A DNA stretch of 55,631 bases from Acidobacteriota bacterium (GTDB taxonomy: Bacteria > Acidobacteriota > Terriglobia > Bryobacterales > Bryobacteraceae). The notes under the pieces are model-generated. The model was not told the DNA's origin. It saw only the letters and a list, made by a program, of their open reading frames with translations, and ran no database searches. The position numbers and the translations under genes are program-made. Shown piece after piece: positions 40,870-48,661 of the stretch (its first letter is position 1; every line of letters starts with the position of its first letter). The DNA lies in NCBI GenBank assembly GCA_025350695.1, contig JANXXI010000168.1, forward strand, positions 1 through 55,631, in the 5' to 3' direction.

Positions 40870-41601
40870 TCACGTCCGCTCTACCTGTCGCAGAGCCCGC
40901 GCGAAACGAACAGCCCAGCTACGCTGGTTAGCCGCGTCGGCGATCTCGTCCTGCCGGAATTCCACCTGGATGTGCGGCAATCCGCGGCGCAAGGCATGGT
41001 ACGGAGTACTGTAATCAACCTTCGGATCCAGATCGTAGGGTTGATTATCTCCTACAACAACGTCACCGCTCTGACGCAGAGCGGCAAGCACGATTTCGGT
41101 AAGGCTACGGTCCAGATAGCTGGATAGCGCAATTTGCCAGGGCCTTGACTCTTTTCCAAGCATCGGCGTCATGGAATGTATGGAGACCACCGTAGATTCG
41201 GCGCCCTTCGCTTCGCGTTGCAACAGCACGGATTCCACCGCGTCGTGATACGGATGGAACCAGAGCCTGATACGGGCCGCCTTGGCCGCTTCATTAAGAT
41301 GCAGGTTGCCGGGTATGACCGTTCCGTCGCTGGTCTCAGGGATGAGATCCGAAGCGTGAAGCTGGCGGTTGCAGTCGATGACCAATCTGGATACGCCGGA
41401 GAGGACGGCGGGGGCATCTAAAATATCCGAAAGCTCTTCCGTTACGCCAGCCGCGCCAATGTCCCACGCAATATGCCGCGCGAGTTCAGACTCAGGCAAT
41501 CCTAAATTCCGCAATTCCTCCGGAACAGCATTGCTCGCGTGATCGCAGAAGAGCAGGAAGCGGCTCTTCCCGTCGGCGCGGAGAATGCGAGGCTCCATCA
41601 T
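40870..41601 (-). CDS. N-formylglutamate amidohydrolase family protein
   Basis: A 243-residue cytosolic hydrolase of the FGase family. The conserved blocks are FLLFCDHASNAVPEEL, AWDIGAAGV, SRLVIDCNRQL, VVSIHSMTPML, and the C-terminal HIQVEFRQDEIADA. The His in CDHASN and others bind zinc in the family. Classic members hydrolyse N-formylglutamate to glutamate and formate, but relatives cleave other N-acyl-glutamates. Here no histidine-degradation genes are near. It is the last gene of the ATP-grasp/alpha-E/transglutaminase cluster, 7 nt behind the transglutaminase-like gene, suggesting it acts on an amide made or recycled by that system. Confidence 0.88.
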   Translation of the reverse strand: MMEPRILRADGKSRFLLFCDHASNAVPEELRNLGLPESELARHIAWDIGAAGVTEELSDILDAPAVLSGVSRLVIDCNRQLHASDLIPETSDGTVIPGNLHLNEAAKAARIRLWFHPYHDAVESVLLQREAKGAESTVVSIHSMTPMLGKESRPWQIALSSYLDRSLTEIVLAALRQSGDVVVGDNQPYDLDPKVDYSTPYHALRRGLPHIQVEFRQDEIADAANQRSWAVRFARALRQVERT

Positions 41602-41608
41602 TGTCTTC

Positions 41609-42478
41609 TCATCTCTCCGTTTCCGAAACCGTCACGGTCACGTCCATGCCAAGGAAGTCTTCCGCGGCTCCATCATAAGTGCCCCATAGAGGTAGGACTT
41701 GCGAGGCATCCCAAGCGACGGCGACGCGAATTAGATTCCGGTTCCCGATGATGTTGTTCGTGGGATCGAAGTCAATCCAGCCTGCACCAGGAAGATAGGC
41801 TTGCATCCAGGCATGGGTAGCTCCTCCACCCGCCAAACCAGAACTGTTGGGAACGAATATATATCCGCTGACAAATCGGGCCGCGACACCCAGTGACCGG
41901 GTTGCTTCTATCATAAGGACCGCAAAATCCCTGCAACTTCCTTTCTTGCTCTTCAAAGTCTGCGAGGGAGTTTGCACGCCTTTTTCCACGCGGCGGGTGT
42001 ACCGGAACTGGTCTCTAATCCCATTGGTTAAGGCGCGGAGCATTTTCATCGTTGCGGTAGTGCTTGAGGCATCGAGAAACTGTAATGCCCATTCACTCAC
42101 CTCCGGGTCTATTAAGTAAGAATGCGGCAACGCGCGCCCTAGATTGGCAAAATCTTCATCTGAATAATGGAATGGGTATGTTCGTGCGTATTCCTCAAGT
42201 GGGTACTCCGGCACGGAATTCTCGAAATGCTCCAGTGTTACCGTACTGTCGAATCGAAGTTCCGTGGTGGAGCCCTCAAACGTAGCCACAGCCACGGAGT
42301 TATCGAAAGGATCGTGCAGCCACCGCAATAAAACCGGCTGGGGTGTGATGACCAAACTGGTCTCTAGCAGCCGTAAATCGTGACTCGCGCGAGGACGGAA
42401 CAACATGCGATGTTCGCCTAGGCCAACCGGCGAGGCGTAACGGTAAGTTGTAGCATGTTTAACCGTGAGAAACGACAT
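41609..42478 (-). CDS. Transglutaminase-like cysteine peptidase/amidase (first type)
   Basis: A 289-residue protein with an N-terminal beta domain typical of bacterial transglutaminase-like proteins (VKHATTYRYASPVGLGEHRM, RPRASHDL) and a C-terminal core with the complete triad: Cys182 in KKGSCRDFAVLMI, His in GGGATHAWMQAYLPG, and Asp in WIDFDPTNNI. Members usually hydrolyse or transfer amides. Its start overlaps the stop of the upstream paralogue by one base (TGATG). Co-occurrence with ATP-grasp and alpha-E proteins is typical of predicted peptide-modification loci. Confidence 0.93.
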   Translation of the reverse strand: MSFLTVKHATTYRYASPVGLGEHRMLFRPRASHDLRLLETSLVITPQPVLLRWLHDPFDNSVAVATFEGSTTELRFDSTVTLEHFENSVPEYPLEEYARTYPFHYSDEDFANLGRALPHSYLIDPEVSEWALQFLDASSTTATMKMLRALTNGIRDQFRYTRRVEKGVQTPSQTLKSKKGSCRDFAVLMIEATRSLGVAARFVSGYIFVPNSSGLAGGGATHAWMQAYLPGAGWIDFDPTNNIIGNRNLIRVAVAWDASQVLPLWGTYDGAAEDFLGMDVTVTVSETER

Positions 42479-43314
42479 CAGGAGGCTGATCCGCCAGCGG
42501 CTTCGCTACTTTGGATTTCATCGGTCCACACCCTGAAACTTTCCAAAGTGTTGGGACCAAAAGTTGTCGCAATGGCGACGTCGGCCGCATCACGGCCTCG
42601 CGCCATTAGGATGCGCCCTATGCGCGGAGTGTTGTTACGGGGGTCAAAGCGATGCCAACGACCGTCGATCCAGGCCTCAAACCAAGCCGCGAAATCACCC
42701 GGAGGGTACGGCAGTGGAGTGCCTAAATCGCTAAGATAACCAGTGCAATAGCGTGCCGGAATATTCATGCAGCGGCAGAATGCGATAGCCAGATGCGCAT
42801 AGTCCCGGCAGACACCGGTCCCTTCGTTGAAAGCCTCAGAGGCGCTTCTGCTGGCGCGGGCGTTCTGGTAGTTGAAAACAATATGGTTGTGAACGTAGTT
42901 ACAGATCGCCTGCACCCGCGGGTAGCCGGGAGTCGTGCCGCTAAAGAGGCCCCACGCGGTGTGCGATAACAAATCGGTCTCGCAATAGCGGCTTCCCAGC
43001 AGGAATACAAGGGTTTCCGCGGGCAGATCTTCCACAGCGTCCTGAGTATTAGCGGACAAAACTTCATCCGGCTCGCCGCTGTCTCTGACAGTGGCGTTAG
43101 CCCTAAGACACAGCCGGCCCGCGGGAGCGAGGATTCGATGGCACTGATTTCCAAACCCGTCACGGTAGCGGCTTATGGGAATTGAAGGTTCGGTCCTCAA
43201 CTGATCAGGGACGATTAGATCGGACGCACGGGAATCGTGCACATTCAGGACCAGTATGATCGGCGTGGGCTGGGGGAAAGTATATATAATTTCGTAACCA
43301 GTTCTAAACAGCAT
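42478..43314 (-). CDS. Transglutaminase-like protein (second type) lacking the usual catalytic His
   Basis: A 278-residue paralogue. Cys169 (TGVCRDYAHLAI) and the Asp of HRFDPRNN (Asp224) are present, but the HAW motif reads FAAW, with Ala209 in the place of the His. The C-terminal NTPRIGRILMARGRDAADVA block is characteristic of this subfamily, in which I recall Ser also occurs at that position. It may be inactive, use another base, or act as a partner of the active paralogue encoded just downstream. Confidence 0.88.
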   Translation of the reverse strand: MLFRTGYEIIYTFPQPTPIILVLNVHDSRASDLIVPDQLRTEPSIPISRYRDGFGNQCHRILAPAGRLCLRANATVRDSGEPDEVLSANTQDAVEDLPAETLVFLLGSRYCETDLLSHTAWGLFSGTTPGYPRVQAICNYVHNHIVFNYQNARASRSASEAFNEGTGVCRDYAHLAIAFCRCMNIPARYCTGYLSDLGTPLPYPPGDFAAWFEAWIDGRWHRFDPRNNTPRIGRILMARGRDAADVAIATTFGPNTLESFRVWTDEIQSSEAAGGSAS

Positions 43315-43420
43315 TAAATTACCTTATTGATCAATTTTTTCTTCTCTAAGTTTAACAGGGCCATCCATCGGACACCGTCCAATTCTGAGAGAGCCTTATG
43401 TATGCCGAAGTTGTTTCAGA

Positions 43421-46090
43421 TCATCCGCAAACGCTCATGTCGCTGGAACGCCCACCAGCCGCGGGCACGTAACTGTGAAGGACGTAATCCATCACCATCC
43501 GGTTCGCGTTGAAACGCCAGCCCAACGTGCGAATCGTTCGCTTCATGCGTTTAATCCACCCGCGAGGCAGACCGTCCCTGTCCCGCGTGTAAAACAGCGG
43601 AATCACTTCCTCGCGCAGCACTTTGTAAAGGTCCTCGGCATCGCGTGAATCATGTACATGCTCCGAGGAGTTGGTGCGGCCCGTGCCAATCGCGAAGCCA
43701 TTCAGTCCGTCGTAGGCCTCCGCCCACCAACCGTCCAGCACGGAAAGATTCAATCCGCCGTTTAGTACTACCTTTTGTCCGCTTGTTCCGGAAGCTTCTA
43801 GCGGCCGGCGCGGATTGTTCAGCCAAACGTCTACTCCTTGCACCAGCAACCTTCCCACGTTAATGTCGTAATCCTCAATGAAAGCGATTTTGTCCGCGAA
43901 AAGAGTTTGCCTCATTAGATTTGCGATTTCCTGAAGCACGCGCTTTCCTGGCTCATCGTGAGGGTGCGCCTTGCCGGAAAAAATAAACTGCACCGGACGG
44001 TTCAGGTCATTGACCACGGAGATTACTTGTTCCAAGTCGCGCAAAATCAAATTGGCGCGCTTGTAGGTGGCAAATCGCCGGGCGAAGCCAATCGTCAACG
44101 CATCGGGGCTGAAAATACGACTCAAATGTTGTTTGGTCGCGGCAGATTCGCTGCGATTGTTAGCCTGCTCGACGGAACGGGAACGGGTAAATTCGATCAA
44201 ACGCGCTTTCTGCGCCAAATGCGTTTCCCACAACTCGCCGTCATCCACATTCTCAATACCCTCCCAAGTCTCCGCTTCGCCACTTCGCCGACTCCAATCG
44301 GCTCCAAGATGCCGGTCATAAAGGCGAAACATTTGCGGAGCCAGCCAGGTAGGTACATGCACGCCGTTCGTGATGTGACCGATGGGGACACTTTCTTCAC
44401 GCTTGCCGGGGTACAATCCGGCCCACATACTTCGGGAAACTTCGCCGTGCAGCGCCGAAACGGCATTGGTTCGCCGCGCATATTTCAGACCCAATACCGT
44501 CATGCAAAACTCTTCGTGGTGATTGCCCGGATTCTCCCGTCCAAGCGCCATAAGGCCCTCGTGCGACAATCCAAGCGCGTCCCGTAAGGGCCCCAGATGT
44601 TCTTCCATCAAGTCCGGTGAAAAACGGTCATGACCCGCAGGCACCGGGGTGTGCGTGGTAAATACGACTTCGCGTGAAATGTGCGGCGTGGTCTGGTCAA
44701 AACTCAAGCCTTCCTCTTCCATCCGGCTCCGCGTCGCTTCCAGCGCCACAAACGCGCTGTGACCTTCATTCAAATGCAAAACACTTGGAGTGATGCCCAT
44801 CGCCTTCAACGCCCGGAACCCACCCACGCCAAGAAGCAATTCCTGACGGATGCGCACACGCCCATCGCCGCCATAAAGACGCGAAGTGAGCTCGCGGTCT
44901 TCGGGCGCATTTCCTTCCACGTTCGTGTCAAGCAGCAACAGGTCAATGCGACCCACTTTCGTCCGCCATACTTTCGCCCGGATGCAGCCCGTTCTGGTAA
45001 ACACCTCCACCGTAACCGGCGCCCCGTCTTTGCCAATTGCTATTTCCAGTGGCAGTTGGTTGATGTCGGTAACCAAATACTCTTCGCGCTGCCAACCATT
45101 GCCGTCCAGTCTCTGCCGGAAGTAACCCTGGCCGTAGAAAAGCCCAACGCCGACCAGGGGAATCCCCAAATCGGAGGCGCTCTTCACGTGATCGCCGGCC
45201 AGAACGCCTAGCCCACCCGAATAGATTGGCAGTGACTCGTGCAATCCGAATTCCAAGGAAAAATAGGCGACGGGCCGGGGACGAAGCACGCCAGCATGGG
45301 TGTCGCCCCAGGTTCGATCCGCCTTCAGATATTCCTGTTGGCGCCGATAGGCGTAATTAATGCGGCCATGCAGCACCATCTGCATGGCCCGGCGCTCCAG
45401 TTCCTTGAAAGGAATCTCCGATAGCAACGAAATGGGATTGTGGTTGAGAGCTCTCCAACGCGCCGAATCGAGGTCGCGGAACAGCGTGGTGGACTCCTGA
45501 TCCCAACTCCACCAGAGATTCCGCGCCAAACTCCAGAGCTTTTCCTGCGTTGGCGCGATGAAGCGGTCAAGCGTACGGGCTTCGCTGATAATCGGAGCTA
45601 GTTGGGAAGCGGCTTCGACCAACATCCGCACCTCATCTTCCCTGAAACTCCGTCGTTCAATCGTCTGCACAACCAACACGCCTTGCAGCACTCCGCGATC
45701 AATCAGCGGTACTCCAAGAAACGATTGATAGGCGTCCTCGCCGGCTTCCCGGAAATACTTGAACCTTGGATGCTTCTTTACATCCTCCACCGAAACAGGC
45801 ATCATCTGCTCTGCGGTGAATCCGGCAAGGCCTTCGTTCAAGGCCATCCGCACGGACCCCACGGATTCGCGTCGCAAACCCAAAGTCGCCGCCAGTACCA
45901 GGTTGGCGCGGTCGGGTTCCAACAAATAGGCGGAGCAGACATCGGTATTGAACCGCCGGGCAATCAGCGCCACGACGTTCGTCAGCGTTTCAGCCGGCTG
46001 GTTGCCTTCCTGCACAACGTTTTCGATCTCTTCAATTGTCAAAAAGTGTGTCGACCCACTGTCCGTTACGTTCATAAGATCTGTATCCAT
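43421..46090 (-). CDS. Alpha-glucan phosphorylase (GT35) with N-terminal GAF domain
   Basis: An 889-residue fusion. Residues about 20-170 form a GAF domain close to that of PtsP (EI-Ntr): LNEGLAGFTAEQMMPVSVED, HPRFKYFREAGEDAYQSFLG, LQGVLVVQTIERRSF. The rest is a short-type alpha-glucan phosphorylase: the N-terminal NLWWSWDQEST region (DUF3417), PVAYFSLEFGLHESLPIYSGG, VVFTTHTPVPAGHDRF, and the pyridoxal-phosphate lysine Lys773 in GTSGQKVVLNGG with GWWAEAY after it. The enzyme splits alpha-1,4-glucan with phosphate to glucose-1-phosphate. A GAF fusion is unusual for this family and suggests small-molecule control. Flanking gaps of about 105 bp separate it from both neighbours in the cluster. 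Confidence 0.93.
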   Translation of the reverse strand: MDTDLMNVTDSGSTHFLTIEEIENVVQEGNQPAETLTNVVALIARRFNTDVCSAYLLEPDRANLVLAATLGLRRESVGSVRMALNEGLAGFTAEQMMPVSVEDVKKHPRFKYFREAGEDAYQSFLGVPLIDRGVLQGVLVVQTIERRSFREDEVRMLVEAASQLAPIISEARTLDRFIAPTQEKLWSLARNLWWSWDQESTTLFRDLDSARWRALNHNPISLLSEIPFKELERRAMQMVLHGRINYAYRRQQEYLKADRTWGDTHAGVLRPRPVAYFSLEFGLHESLPIYSGGLGVLAGDHVKSASDLGIPLVGVGLFYGQGYFRQRLDGNGWQREEYLVTDINQLPLEIAIGKDGAPVTVEVFTRTGCIRAKVWRTKVGRIDLLLLDTNVEGNAPEDRELTSRLYGGDGRVRIRQELLLGVGGFRALKAMGITPSVLHLNEGHSAFVALEATRSRMEEEGLSFDQTTPHISREVVFTTHTPVPAGHDRFSPDLMEEHLGPLRDALGLSHEGLMALGRENPGNHHEEFCMTVLGLKYARRTNAVSALHGEVSRSMWAGLYPGKREESVPIGHITNGVHVPTWLAPQMFRLYDRHLGADWSRRSGEAETWEGIENVDDGELWETHLAQKARLIEFTRSRSVEQANNRSESAATKQHLSRIFSPDALTIGFARRFATYKRANLILRDLEQVISVVNDLNRPVQFIFSGKAHPHDEPGKRVLQEIANLMRQTLFADKIAFIEDYDINVGRLLVQGVDVWLNNPRRPLEASGTSGQKVVLNGGLNLSVLDGWWAEAYDGLNGFAIGTGRTNSSEHVHDSRDAEDLYKVLREEVIPLFYTRDRDGLPRGWIKRMKRTIRTLGWRFNANRMVMDYVLHSYVPAAGGRSSDMSVCG

Positions 46091-46199
46091 TAACCTTCTC
46101 CCTTAAACGGATATATTGGCGCCGTTCAACTTTCGTGGTTGTTCGATCTACTAAAAGGCGCGCAAAGCGGGGCGCGCTCCTCGCGGAAAGTTCTTAGCG

Positions 46200-47195
46200 C
46201 TACGTGGATGTCTGGCTCTGGCTTTGACTCTGCGACGCGCGGGCGATAAATTCCGTCCGGACAGAGTCATCAATCTCATTCATCTTGTGCTGCAGGGCAT
46301 CCAGGTATTCGTGCAGCCCCCCCTTGATGATCGTGTCAGTGGATGTGTAGTCCAGTTCAGAAAGTAGTTGGCCCATTAATTGTTCAGAACGGTATTGGTA
46401 ATAGCCTCTAGCCGTTCCGGAGATTGTGTGGATAGATTCATTGGCGCAACAAATGCAATAGTGCACAGCGCGCGGAAAGTCCCGATCCATCACCAGAAAG
46501 TCGACGACGTCTCGCGGCGTGATGCGGCCGTACTTTTTGCGATACATTTCGAAGCCGCTGACAGATTTCAAAACGGCGGCCCAATGTATATCATCGTAGG
46601 GCGTTCCAACCTCCTTCGAGGAAGGAAGCAGCATGAAATATTTGACGTCCAATATGCGGGAAGTCTTATCGGCTCTTTCCAGTTTTCGGCCCAATTCCAG
46701 GAAATGCCACGGTTCGTTATGCGTCATAGTGGCGTCTGTAACCCCTTGGAAAAGGTGGCAGCCCATGCGAATTTCGCGAAGGGAATCAAGAAGACGCTCA
46801 GGCTCCGGCATGGAGCGCTGCGATTGGATCTGCAGATACATAGCGTTGATCTGCGCCCACATCTCAGAGGAAATGGTTTCGCGAACCGAGCGTGCATTCT
46901 CGCGGGCGCTTCGCAAGCAGGAGCTAATGGAACTGGGGTTTTCGGTGTCGTAAGCCAGAAATTCAATGACCCGAGCCTGTGTTGCCACGCCGTAACGTTT
47001 CTGGAAACTTTCCGTATCGCCGCTCGTGTCTATCAGAGGCTGCCACTGATGCGCCGGATCAAGCGGCAAGTCCAGTTGCAAGTTCAAATTCACGCCGATG
47101 TACCGGGCTACGTTTTCCGCGCGTTCAATGTAGCGCCCCATCCAGTAAACTGCGTCCGCCACTCGACTCAAAAGAGGGTTTGTTTCACTCATCAT
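46200..47195 (-). CDS. Alpha-E domain protein
   Basis: A 331-residue, almost all-helical protein with the alpha-E signature at the start (LLSRVADAVYWMGRYIERAENVAR split as RVADAVYWMGRYIERAENVA) and HNEPWHFLELGRKLERADKT in the middle; both carry conserved Glu/Arg pairs. Alpha-E proteins are uncharacterised but nearly always accompany the circularly permuted ATP-grasp partner, as here, where its ATG overlaps that gene's stop (ATGA). A binding or catalytic partner role in amide-bond formation has been predicted from genome context. Confidence 0.93.
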   Translation of the reverse strand: MMSETNPLLSRVADAVYWMGRYIERAENVARYIGVNLNLQLDLPLDPAHQWQPLIDTSGDTESFQKRYGVATQARVIEFLAYDTENPSSISSCLRSARENARSVRETISSEMWAQINAMYLQIQSQRSMPEPERLLDSLREIRMGCHLFQGVTDATMTHNEPWHFLELGRKLERADKTSRILDVKYFMLLPSSKEVGTPYDDIHWAAVLKSVSGFEMYRKKYGRITPRDVVDFLVMDRDFPRAVHYCICCANESIHTISGTARGYYQYRSEQLMGQLLSELDYTSTDTIIKGGLHEYLDALQHKMNEIDDSVRTEFIARASQSQSQSQTST

Positions 47196-48661
47196 GCCGC
47201 GTCACCGTCTCGGCTACCGTTTAAGGATTCCGCCAGAACCCAAGTGTCCTTGCTGCCGCCGCCCTGCGAGGAGTTCACAACCAGCGAATTCTTTCGCAGT
47301 GCGACCCGCGTCAGGCCCCCCGGAAGAACATGGATATCTTTGCCATAAAGAATGTATGGCCGTAGATCGACATGCCGCCCTTCTAGGTGATCGCCGATTA
47401 AGGTAGGGACACGCGACAAGGCCAGCGTCGGCTGTGCAATATATTCCCTGGGATGCGCTTGAATCCTTCTTGCGAATTCCTCCTGTTCAGCCACCGTGGA
47501 GTGGGGCCCAATCAACATGCCGTAGCCTCCTGCCTCATTGGCGGCCTTGACAACCAGCTTGTCCAGATTAGCGAGCACGTGCTGCCGGTCGGCGTCGCGC
47601 CAACATAGATATGTGGGCACGTTAGGCAAAATTGCATCCTCGCCCAGGTAATAGCGGATCATCTGCGGCACGTACGCGTAGACCACTTTGTCGTCGGCTA
47701 CTCCGTTACCAGGCGCATTGGCTAACGCCACGCGCCCAGCCCGATACGCTTGCACTAATCCCGGCACCCCCAGCATGGAGTCCTTGCGGAACGCTTGCGG
47801 ATCCAGGAAATCGTCGTCGATGCGGCGGTAAATCACGTCCACTTTCCGCCGGCCCTTCGTTGTCAGCATCCACACCGCATCGCTCTCCACTACCAAATCG
47901 CGGCCCTCCACTAATGGAATCCCCATCTTCTGGGCTAGAAAACTATGTTCAAAGTACGCCGAGTTAAAGATTCCAGGCGTCAGCAAGACAACTACCGGCT
48001 TGCCTTCGGCTCCTGCCGGCGCGATATCCTCCAGAGTTTGCAGCAGATTGCTGGGATAATCGTCAACCGGCCTAACGCGCAATCCTTCGAAGACCTGCGG
48101 GAAGGTTCGCTTCATCAAATCCCGGTTTTCCAACACGTAGGAGACTCCGGAGGGGACCCGCAGATTATCTTCGAGGACGTAAATCTTGCCGTCACCGTGC
48201 CGCACCAAATCCGTTCCGGTAATGTGACACCAAACGCCTAGTGGTGGATTGAGACCCACGCACTGTGGCCGGTAGAAAACCGCCGACCGAATGACCTCAT
48301 CGGGCACGATTTTGTCTTTGACAATTTTCTGGTCGTGATAAATATCATCAATGAAGAGATTCAGCGCTCGAATGCGCTGCTTGAGCCCGATTTCAATCCA
48401 GTTCCATTCCTCCGAACGCACGATTCGCGGAATCAAATCGAATGGGAAGATTCTTTCAGTCCCACCGGTGTCACCGTAAACGTTGAAGGTGATCCCCATC
48501 TGGACCAGACGGCGTTCGGCGGCACGTTGAAATCTTTGCAGTTGCCCGTCCTCCAGCGCACCGATGGTATCGAGCAACAACTTCGCCTCTGGCCGCGCCA
48601 CACCGGATTCATCGAACATCTCATCGTGAAATCCCTGCAGTGCGTAATCTTCAAGTTGCAT
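47192..48661 (-). CDS. Circularly permuted ATP-grasp ligase (type 2)
   Basis: A 489-residue member of the CP-ATPgrasp/DUF404-DUF407 family. Conserved blocks include GITFNVYGDTGGTERIFPFD, then CHITGTDLVRHGDGKIYVLE, EDNLRVPSGVSYVLENRDLM, FRKDSMLGVPGLVQAYRAGR, VKAANEAGGYGMLIGP and SSQGGGSKDTWV at the C-terminus. Such enzymes are predicted to join a carboxylate to an amine using ATP. It is the first gene of the minus-strand cluster (ATP-grasp, alpha-E, phosphorylase, two transglutaminase-like, FGase), so its upstream region (48662-48870) must hold the promoter, shared divergently with the TonB-receptor-like gene. Confidence 0.94.
   Translation of the reverse strand: MQLEDYALQGFHDEMFDESGVARPEAKLLLDTIGALEDGQLQRFQRAAERRLVQMGITFNVYGDTGGTERIFPFDLIPRIVRSEEWNWIEIGLKQRIRALNLFIDDIYHDQKIVKDKIVPDEVIRSAVFYRPQCVGLNPPLGVWCHITGTDLVRHGDGKIYVLEDNLRVPSGVSYVLENRDLMKRTFPQVFEGLRVRPVDDYPSNLLQTLEDIAPAGAEGKPVVVLLTPGIFNSAYFEHSFLAQKMGIPLVEGRDLVVESDAVWMLTTKGRRKVDVIYRRIDDDFLDPQAFRKDSMLGVPGLVQAYRAGRVALANAPGNGVADDKVVYAYVPQMIRYYLGEDAILPNVPTYLCWRDADRQHVLANLDKLVVKAANEAGGYGMLIGPHSTVAEQEEFARRIQAHPREYIAQPTLALSRVPTLIGDHLEGRHVDLRPYILYGKDIHVLPGGLTRVALRKNSLVVNSSQGGGSKDTWVLAESLNGSRDGDAA

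Follow-up and report, generated by a model that had tools for sequence, protein, structure and literature searches.

What a GAF domain of the nitrogen-PTS type does at the head of a family GT35 phosphorylase is the question raised by one gene in the window, the 55,631-nucleotide stretch of an Acidobacteriota contig (JANXXI010000168.1) analysed in this study. The gene encodes a protein of 889 aa. A preliminary description had placed it at 43421-46090; the location is correct, and translation of the window assigned the reading frame to the minus strand, read from 46090 down to 43421. The plus-strand translation of the same interval is interrupted by stops. Both sequence blocks that had been quoted from the GAF are present in the corrected translation. 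We infer that the fused protein is probably an isozyme of glycogen/alpha-glucan phosphorylase with a built-in sensor that gates the enzyme by ligand. The parts of the gene are listed in Table 1.

Table 1. Parts of the fused gene, with positions in the window.
Feature	Residues	Positions	Strand	Basis
Whole gene, GAF-DUF3417-GT35 fusion	889 aa	43421..46090	-	ORF, Pfam, NCBIfam
PtsP-type GAF domain	17-173	45572..46042	-	Pfam, NCBIfam, PDB sequence search, fold, tree, residue conservation
Linker LDRFIAPTQ (9 residues)	174-182	45545..45571	-	Conservation in 69 proteins
DUF3417, N-terminal helical part of TIGR02094-type phosphorylase	183-287	45230..45544	-	Pfam
GT35 catalytic core, TIGR02094	274-875	43466..45271	-	NCBIfam; fold match
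RRFATYKR motif	671-678	44057..44080	-	Identical in all 69 fused proteins
Lys773, matched in alignment to K646, the PLP lysine of E. coli MalP	773	43772..43774	-	K in 69/69 fused proteins

The domain composition was established with family models and a predicted structure. Pfam recognised a GAF (residues 33-165, E 6e-17), DUF3417 (residues 183-287, E 1e-26) and Phosphorylase (E 1.5e-24) in the 889-aa protein, and the NCBIfam model TIGR02094 scored 827 bits at residues 274-875, above its cut-off of 191.7. The PtsP model NF008283 matched residues 20-189 with 122 bits; this match covers only model positions 6-175 of 748 and, with a cut-off of 583, does not indicate a full PtsP. No PEP-utiliser family, the hallmark of the EI phosphotransfer domains, was found in the protein by Pfam. 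AlphaFold modelled the full-length protein with a mean pLDDT of 86.4 and a pTM of 0.80; the GAF and the enzyme lie mostly above 75 pLDDT, and the joint at residues 174-179 lies below 50. The fusion is a real, conserved architecture that unites two known families.

The GAF of the fused protein is of the PtsP type, as had been proposed at the outset; sequence, fold, tree and residue conservation agree on this point. The top PDB matches found with phmmer were two PtsP GAFs, 3ci6 and 3trc. A structural search with the full-length model was uninformative on the GAF, and the domain was therefore folded separately (pLDDT 85.2). Compared with solved folds, this GAF-only model was closest to the same two PtsP GAFs (Z 25.6 for 3ci6 and 24.6 for 3trc), with the third structure at 20.3. 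Three other fused proteins scored 98-115 bits against the PtsP model, and four other acidobacterial GAFs scored 69-75.

Two GAF trees were calculated. The first contained 10 fused proteins, 6 proteobacterial PtsP and 18 other acidobacterial GAFs (the partial GAF L174_b was dropped), and placed the fused and PtsP GAFs on a common branch (support 97/90, starred). The second added 15 PtsP GAFs from the phylum of genome G435, in which the relatives used as PtsP are GAF+EI proteins in 20/20 cases; it used 10 of the 69 fused proteins and 10 of the 18 other acidobacterial GAFs, and left out five of the 20 G435-phylum rows (L202, L209, L210, L212 and L213). Here, PtsP and fused GAFs were grouped with support of 100/100 (starred), the fused GAFs among themselves with 100/99 (starred), and the fused GAFs with those of the G435 phylum with 92/84 (not starred), in a tree whose bootstrap is not fully settled; the fused row L044 forms a long branch in the GAF trees. 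Given the 100/100 and 92/84 groupings, the fused GAF seems to be nested among the PtsP GAFs, its precise position being moderately supported. A group of small acidobacterial GAF proteins of about 200-270 aa (for example G000:C363 and C31, which are L161 and L162) falls outside the PtsP clade in both trees; the four that were scored against the PtsP model lie in the range of 69-75 bits.

Residue conservation points in the same direction. In the 26 PtsP GAFs compared, 41 positions reach a conservation of at least 80%; of these, 31 are retained by at least 90% of the 69 fused proteins, and the 17 that are invariant in PtsP are all retained by at least 97%. A GAF-GT35 fusion that is common and lacks the PtsP residues, which the preliminary description had set against its own proposal, is thus not what was found. 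Ten PtsP-conserved positions that are rare in other GAFs are retained in the fused proteins (V51, S53, T69, G71, L72, H107, S123, G126, R147 and F149); the PtsP-specific polar positions among them, S53, T69, H107, S123 and R147, stand at 99%. Ten of the 41 PtsP-conserved columns fall below 90% in the fused group, and seven are found in fewer than half of its members; the poorly kept columns include V77 and E119, which in the fused proteins are mostly I and D.

These residues bear on what the domain may sense. Glutamine is the leading candidate by descent from PtsP and is our best single guess, although a tentative one. L88, part of an EGL motif, is L in 69/69 fused proteins and is only one candidate counterpart of the site changed by L83Q in C. 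crescentus PtsP, a mutation reported to abolish the glutamine response. It is also possible, with a chance well short of even, that the GAF senses another ligand, such as a cyclic nucleotide, 2-oxoglutarate, a sugar phosphate or an adenylate, and that the enzyme would be gated by energy or carbon status. Such a change would fit a set of residues that are conserved in the fused proteins but infrequent or lacking in the 6 proteobacterial PtsP GAFs (T35, R46, F47, E58, P59, R61, R109, F113, Q136, T143 and R172, of which R109 and F113 also occur often in other GAFs), and among PDB structures with a related GAF fold are a complex with cAMP (5w10, Z 19.0) and the NifA GAF (8jrc, Foldseek E 1.3e-8; taken from the Foldseek listing and absent among the 50 rows listed in the Z-scored comparison). 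The retention of every PtsP-invariant position speaks against it.

The phosphorylase part resembles known enzymes closely. From about residue 178, the fused model aligns with solved phosphorylases; the best match was the glycogen phosphorylase of Segatella copri (20yr, Z 48.6; 9l6i, Z 43.9, with 38% identity and an rmsd of 2.0 over 694 residues), followed by E. coli MalP (Z 33), and the E. coli phosphorylase structure 9s8k was among the fold matches listed. The RRFATYKR motif presumably has a phosphate/PLP-binding role. Judged from sequence, the catalytic signature residues of the fused GT35 are intact, and phosphorolysis of alpha-1,4-glucan is predicted. In a quick GT35 tree of 50 rows, calculated without the fused row L118 and the fragment L026, 11 fused GT35s formed one clade (100, starred) apart from unfused acidobacterial and other GT35s, which is consistent with a single origin of the fusion.

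Among the 69 fused proteins, mean pairwise identity was 0.765 in the GAF, 0.857 in the linker, 0.736 in DUF3417 and 0.807 in the catalytic core. By this measure, the constraint on the GAF is about equal to that on the enzyme, and the linker is conserved above either domain, with residue 181 alone varying freely.

Unfused GT35s are also present in all four carriers checked (G000, G014, G015 and G022), and no GAF was found in the unfused GT35 paralogs examined. The fused and unfused proteins differ at both ends. At most 14 residues follow residue 877 in the 69 fused proteins, compared with 135-149 residues after the core in 18/18 unfused paralogs (L005-L022); L023 has 81. Before the core, 16 of the same 18 paralogs have 12-42 residues. 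L016 and L018 have longer tails, from which an extra N-terminal domain was suspected; Pfam found none there. The C-terminal extension is common among DUF3417-bearing paralogs and does not define them, as GT35s of about 590 aa also lack it. The fused protein thus carries its putative N-terminal sensor where the paralogs have a C-terminal extension.

This exchange would suit a GAF that serves mainly as a dimerisation or localisation module in place of the lost extension, with no control by a ligand, and so would the absence of a recognised N-terminal domain in the unfused paralogs. A purely structural GAF is expected to drift, however, and the five PtsP-specific polar positions have hardly changed; we give this explanation roughly one chance in a handful or slightly better. 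A ligand-gated isozyme is the likely function of the fused protein.

Genome searches were performed to investigate the distribution of the fusion. It was found in four of 41 genomes (the window's own and 40 relatives; G000, G014, G015 and G022) and in at least six of 396 genomes drawn from the phylum (its own and five others), in four families (f1, f4, f18 and f49). The latter count, based on matches to residues 1-240 with E no higher than 1e-22, is a lower bound because at most 7 candidates were scored per genome; all six matches run from the GAF into DUF3417. Scanning a genome collection of 84,980 species with a GAF alignment revealed at least 421 relatives, of which the best 80 were kept. 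All of these 80 begin in the GAF and 79 extend well beyond the joint; L073 ends with its contig at residue 190. The reading frame is at least 870 aa in 64 of the 80, with 72-81% identity (L124 stops at residue 871, where its locus ends), and contig ends or frameshifts truncate the remaining frames.

The 80 loci come from 80 different bins, all metagenome-assembled according to their record titles, a circumstance that might suggest an assembly chimera or a functionless chance fusion. Recurrence across 80 bins, from the GAF through the joint and in long frames, refutes this explanation, to which we assign practically no probability. Acidobacteriota is the filed phylum of 79 of the 80. The other, L056, is filed as a deltaproteobacterium, and a search of 297 genomes from the phylum of its host genome revealed no other fusion; it lies on a 4,270-base contig, and the genome also carries a true PtsP over the cut-off. 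L056 represents either misbinning or recent transfer. The fusion is therefore a conserved acidobacterial family, though sparse in the phylum sample. Outside this family, GT35 normally has no GAF, as the preliminary description had held: besides the paralogs examined, none of the plasmid matches starts before residue 156 among the 30 listed of 67 records.

The PTS genes of the carriers were also examined. An EI N-terminal PEP-utiliser domain was not found in seven of the nine carriers examined (it is present in G054 and G199), nor an EIIA-Ntr-type domain in eight of the nine; the putative sensor would thus operate outside a PTS in most carriers. The PtsP cut-off was reached in none of 31 genomes (the window's own and relatives) and, with three candidates scored per genome, in none of 297 genomes of the phylum; the EI-type matches listed for the latter begin at model position 146 or later, i.e., after the GAF. 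With the PTS missing from most carriers, the former selective context of the GAF is gone, which adds to the case for a changed ligand. Strong matches to a glycogen-synthase-type GT5 (E <1e-70) were found in seven of nine carriers, and weak matches only in the other two. A PTS_EIIA_2 domain (G124:C12:145603-146001, in L041) was observed in a 610-aa frame at a distance of a few kb from the fused gene; this genome has no EI.

A ligand-gated phosphorylase is proposed by analogy, because glutamine lowers the autophosphorylation of PtsP and the GAF is needed for it: in a study of EI-Ntr (PMC4848567), mutation of the GAF is described as abolishing the effect of glutamine. In the fused protein, the GAF would bind a metabolite, and its occupancy would be relayed via the linker LDRFIAPTQ, the likely transmitter, to the N-terminal region of the phosphorylase; glycogen phosphorolysis to glucose-1-phosphate would then be turned up or down. 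The weaker step is that the metabolite would be glutamine and that nitrogen status would act on the enzyme without the PTS phosphorelay. Many GAFs have no known ligand. A glutamine-gated phosphorylase, in which the PtsP nitrogen sensor has left the phosphorelay and controls glycogen mobilisation, mostly in PTS-less cells and beside an ungated isozyme, is no firmer than a conjecture that we would expect to fail more often than hold. If it is true, the release of sugar in carriers may be coupled directly to a nitrogen signal, and carbon-nitrogen coupling could be tested in one purified protein. It would also mean that a PtsP GAF is able to control a catalytic fold unrelated to its own partner and without phosphotransfer. 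Acidobacteriota are abundant in soil, and their carbon storage would gain a regulatory handle.

Several known systems are comparable in part. PtsP (enzyme I-Ntr) has a GAF of the same clade, with the nearest fold and the same invariant residues, but the fused protein has no EI and its partner is a GT35, mostly in carriers that themselves show no EI. The TIGR02094 phosphorylases of the DUF3417 type, such as that of Segatella copri, share DUF3417, the GT35 core, the PLP lysine and the fold; unlike them, the fused protein has an N-terminal GAF and lacks the C-terminal extension of about 140 residues. In animal phosphorylases, the N-terminal region carries the Ser14/AMP control. The control element would be at the same end of the fold in the fused protein, where model residue 178 corresponds approximately to residue 26-30 of the human liver enzyme, but it is a whole GAF rather than a phosphorylated tail and an AMP site. 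In E. coli, glycogen phosphorylase is regulated by the PTS protein HPr, according to part of a review of prokaryotic alpha-glucan enzymes (PMC11046441), and the word "GAF" occurs 0 times in that part. A PTS-derived signal would act on glycogen phosphorylase in both cases; in E. coli it comes through the binding of a separate phosphocarrier, whereas here a sensor domain of PTS lineage is fused to the enzyme. No description of the GAF-GT35 fusion was found in the literature searched, which included few subscription articles; the architecture may also be present, unremarked, in domain databases.

The neighbourhood had been cited in the preliminary description as a further link to nitrogen, with glutamate/amide-related genes on either side. 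In the window, the collinear minus-strand genes at 40870-48661 encode a circularly permuted ATP-grasp protein, an alpha-E protein, the fused protein, two transglutaminase-like proteins and an N-formylglutamate amidohydrolase family protein (FGase, PF05013). Parts of this cassette recur near the fused gene in only four of 85 other loci within the available flanks (L039, L118, L057 and L047), at identities of 25-78% and in differing arrangements. For example, the fused gene is followed immediately by ATP-grasp and alpha-E genes (78% and 67%) in L118, and by transglutaminase and FGase genes (77%, 76% and 69%) in L039. Gene clustering revealed no conserved neighbour: the best clusters besides the fused gene itself occurred in 8/85 loci, counted after removal of the duplicated contigs L037, L040 and L041 and with flank lengths that vary among loci. 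The argument for nitrogen from the neighbours therefore fails. A downstream gene was found in 69 of 77 loci, in 38 of them on the same strand and in 22 of those 38 within 150 bases; these genes belong to many families.

Some other genes were observed near the fused gene. A second GT35 of about 550-600 aa, with 37-48% identity, is encoded on the opposite strand in L040 (11746-13515), L090, L103, L109, L110 and L117; it is broken in L103, and in L090 it adjoins a galactokinase gene. In a few loci (L099, 8339-11740; L094, 6112-9510), the fused gene is followed by a gene for a protein of about 1133 aa; the two genes overlap in L099, and the L099 copy of the protein had no Pfam match. In seven to eight loci (L065, L077 and others), radical SAM/SPASM, PqqD-like and further genes are located several kb from the fused gene, in the upstream part.
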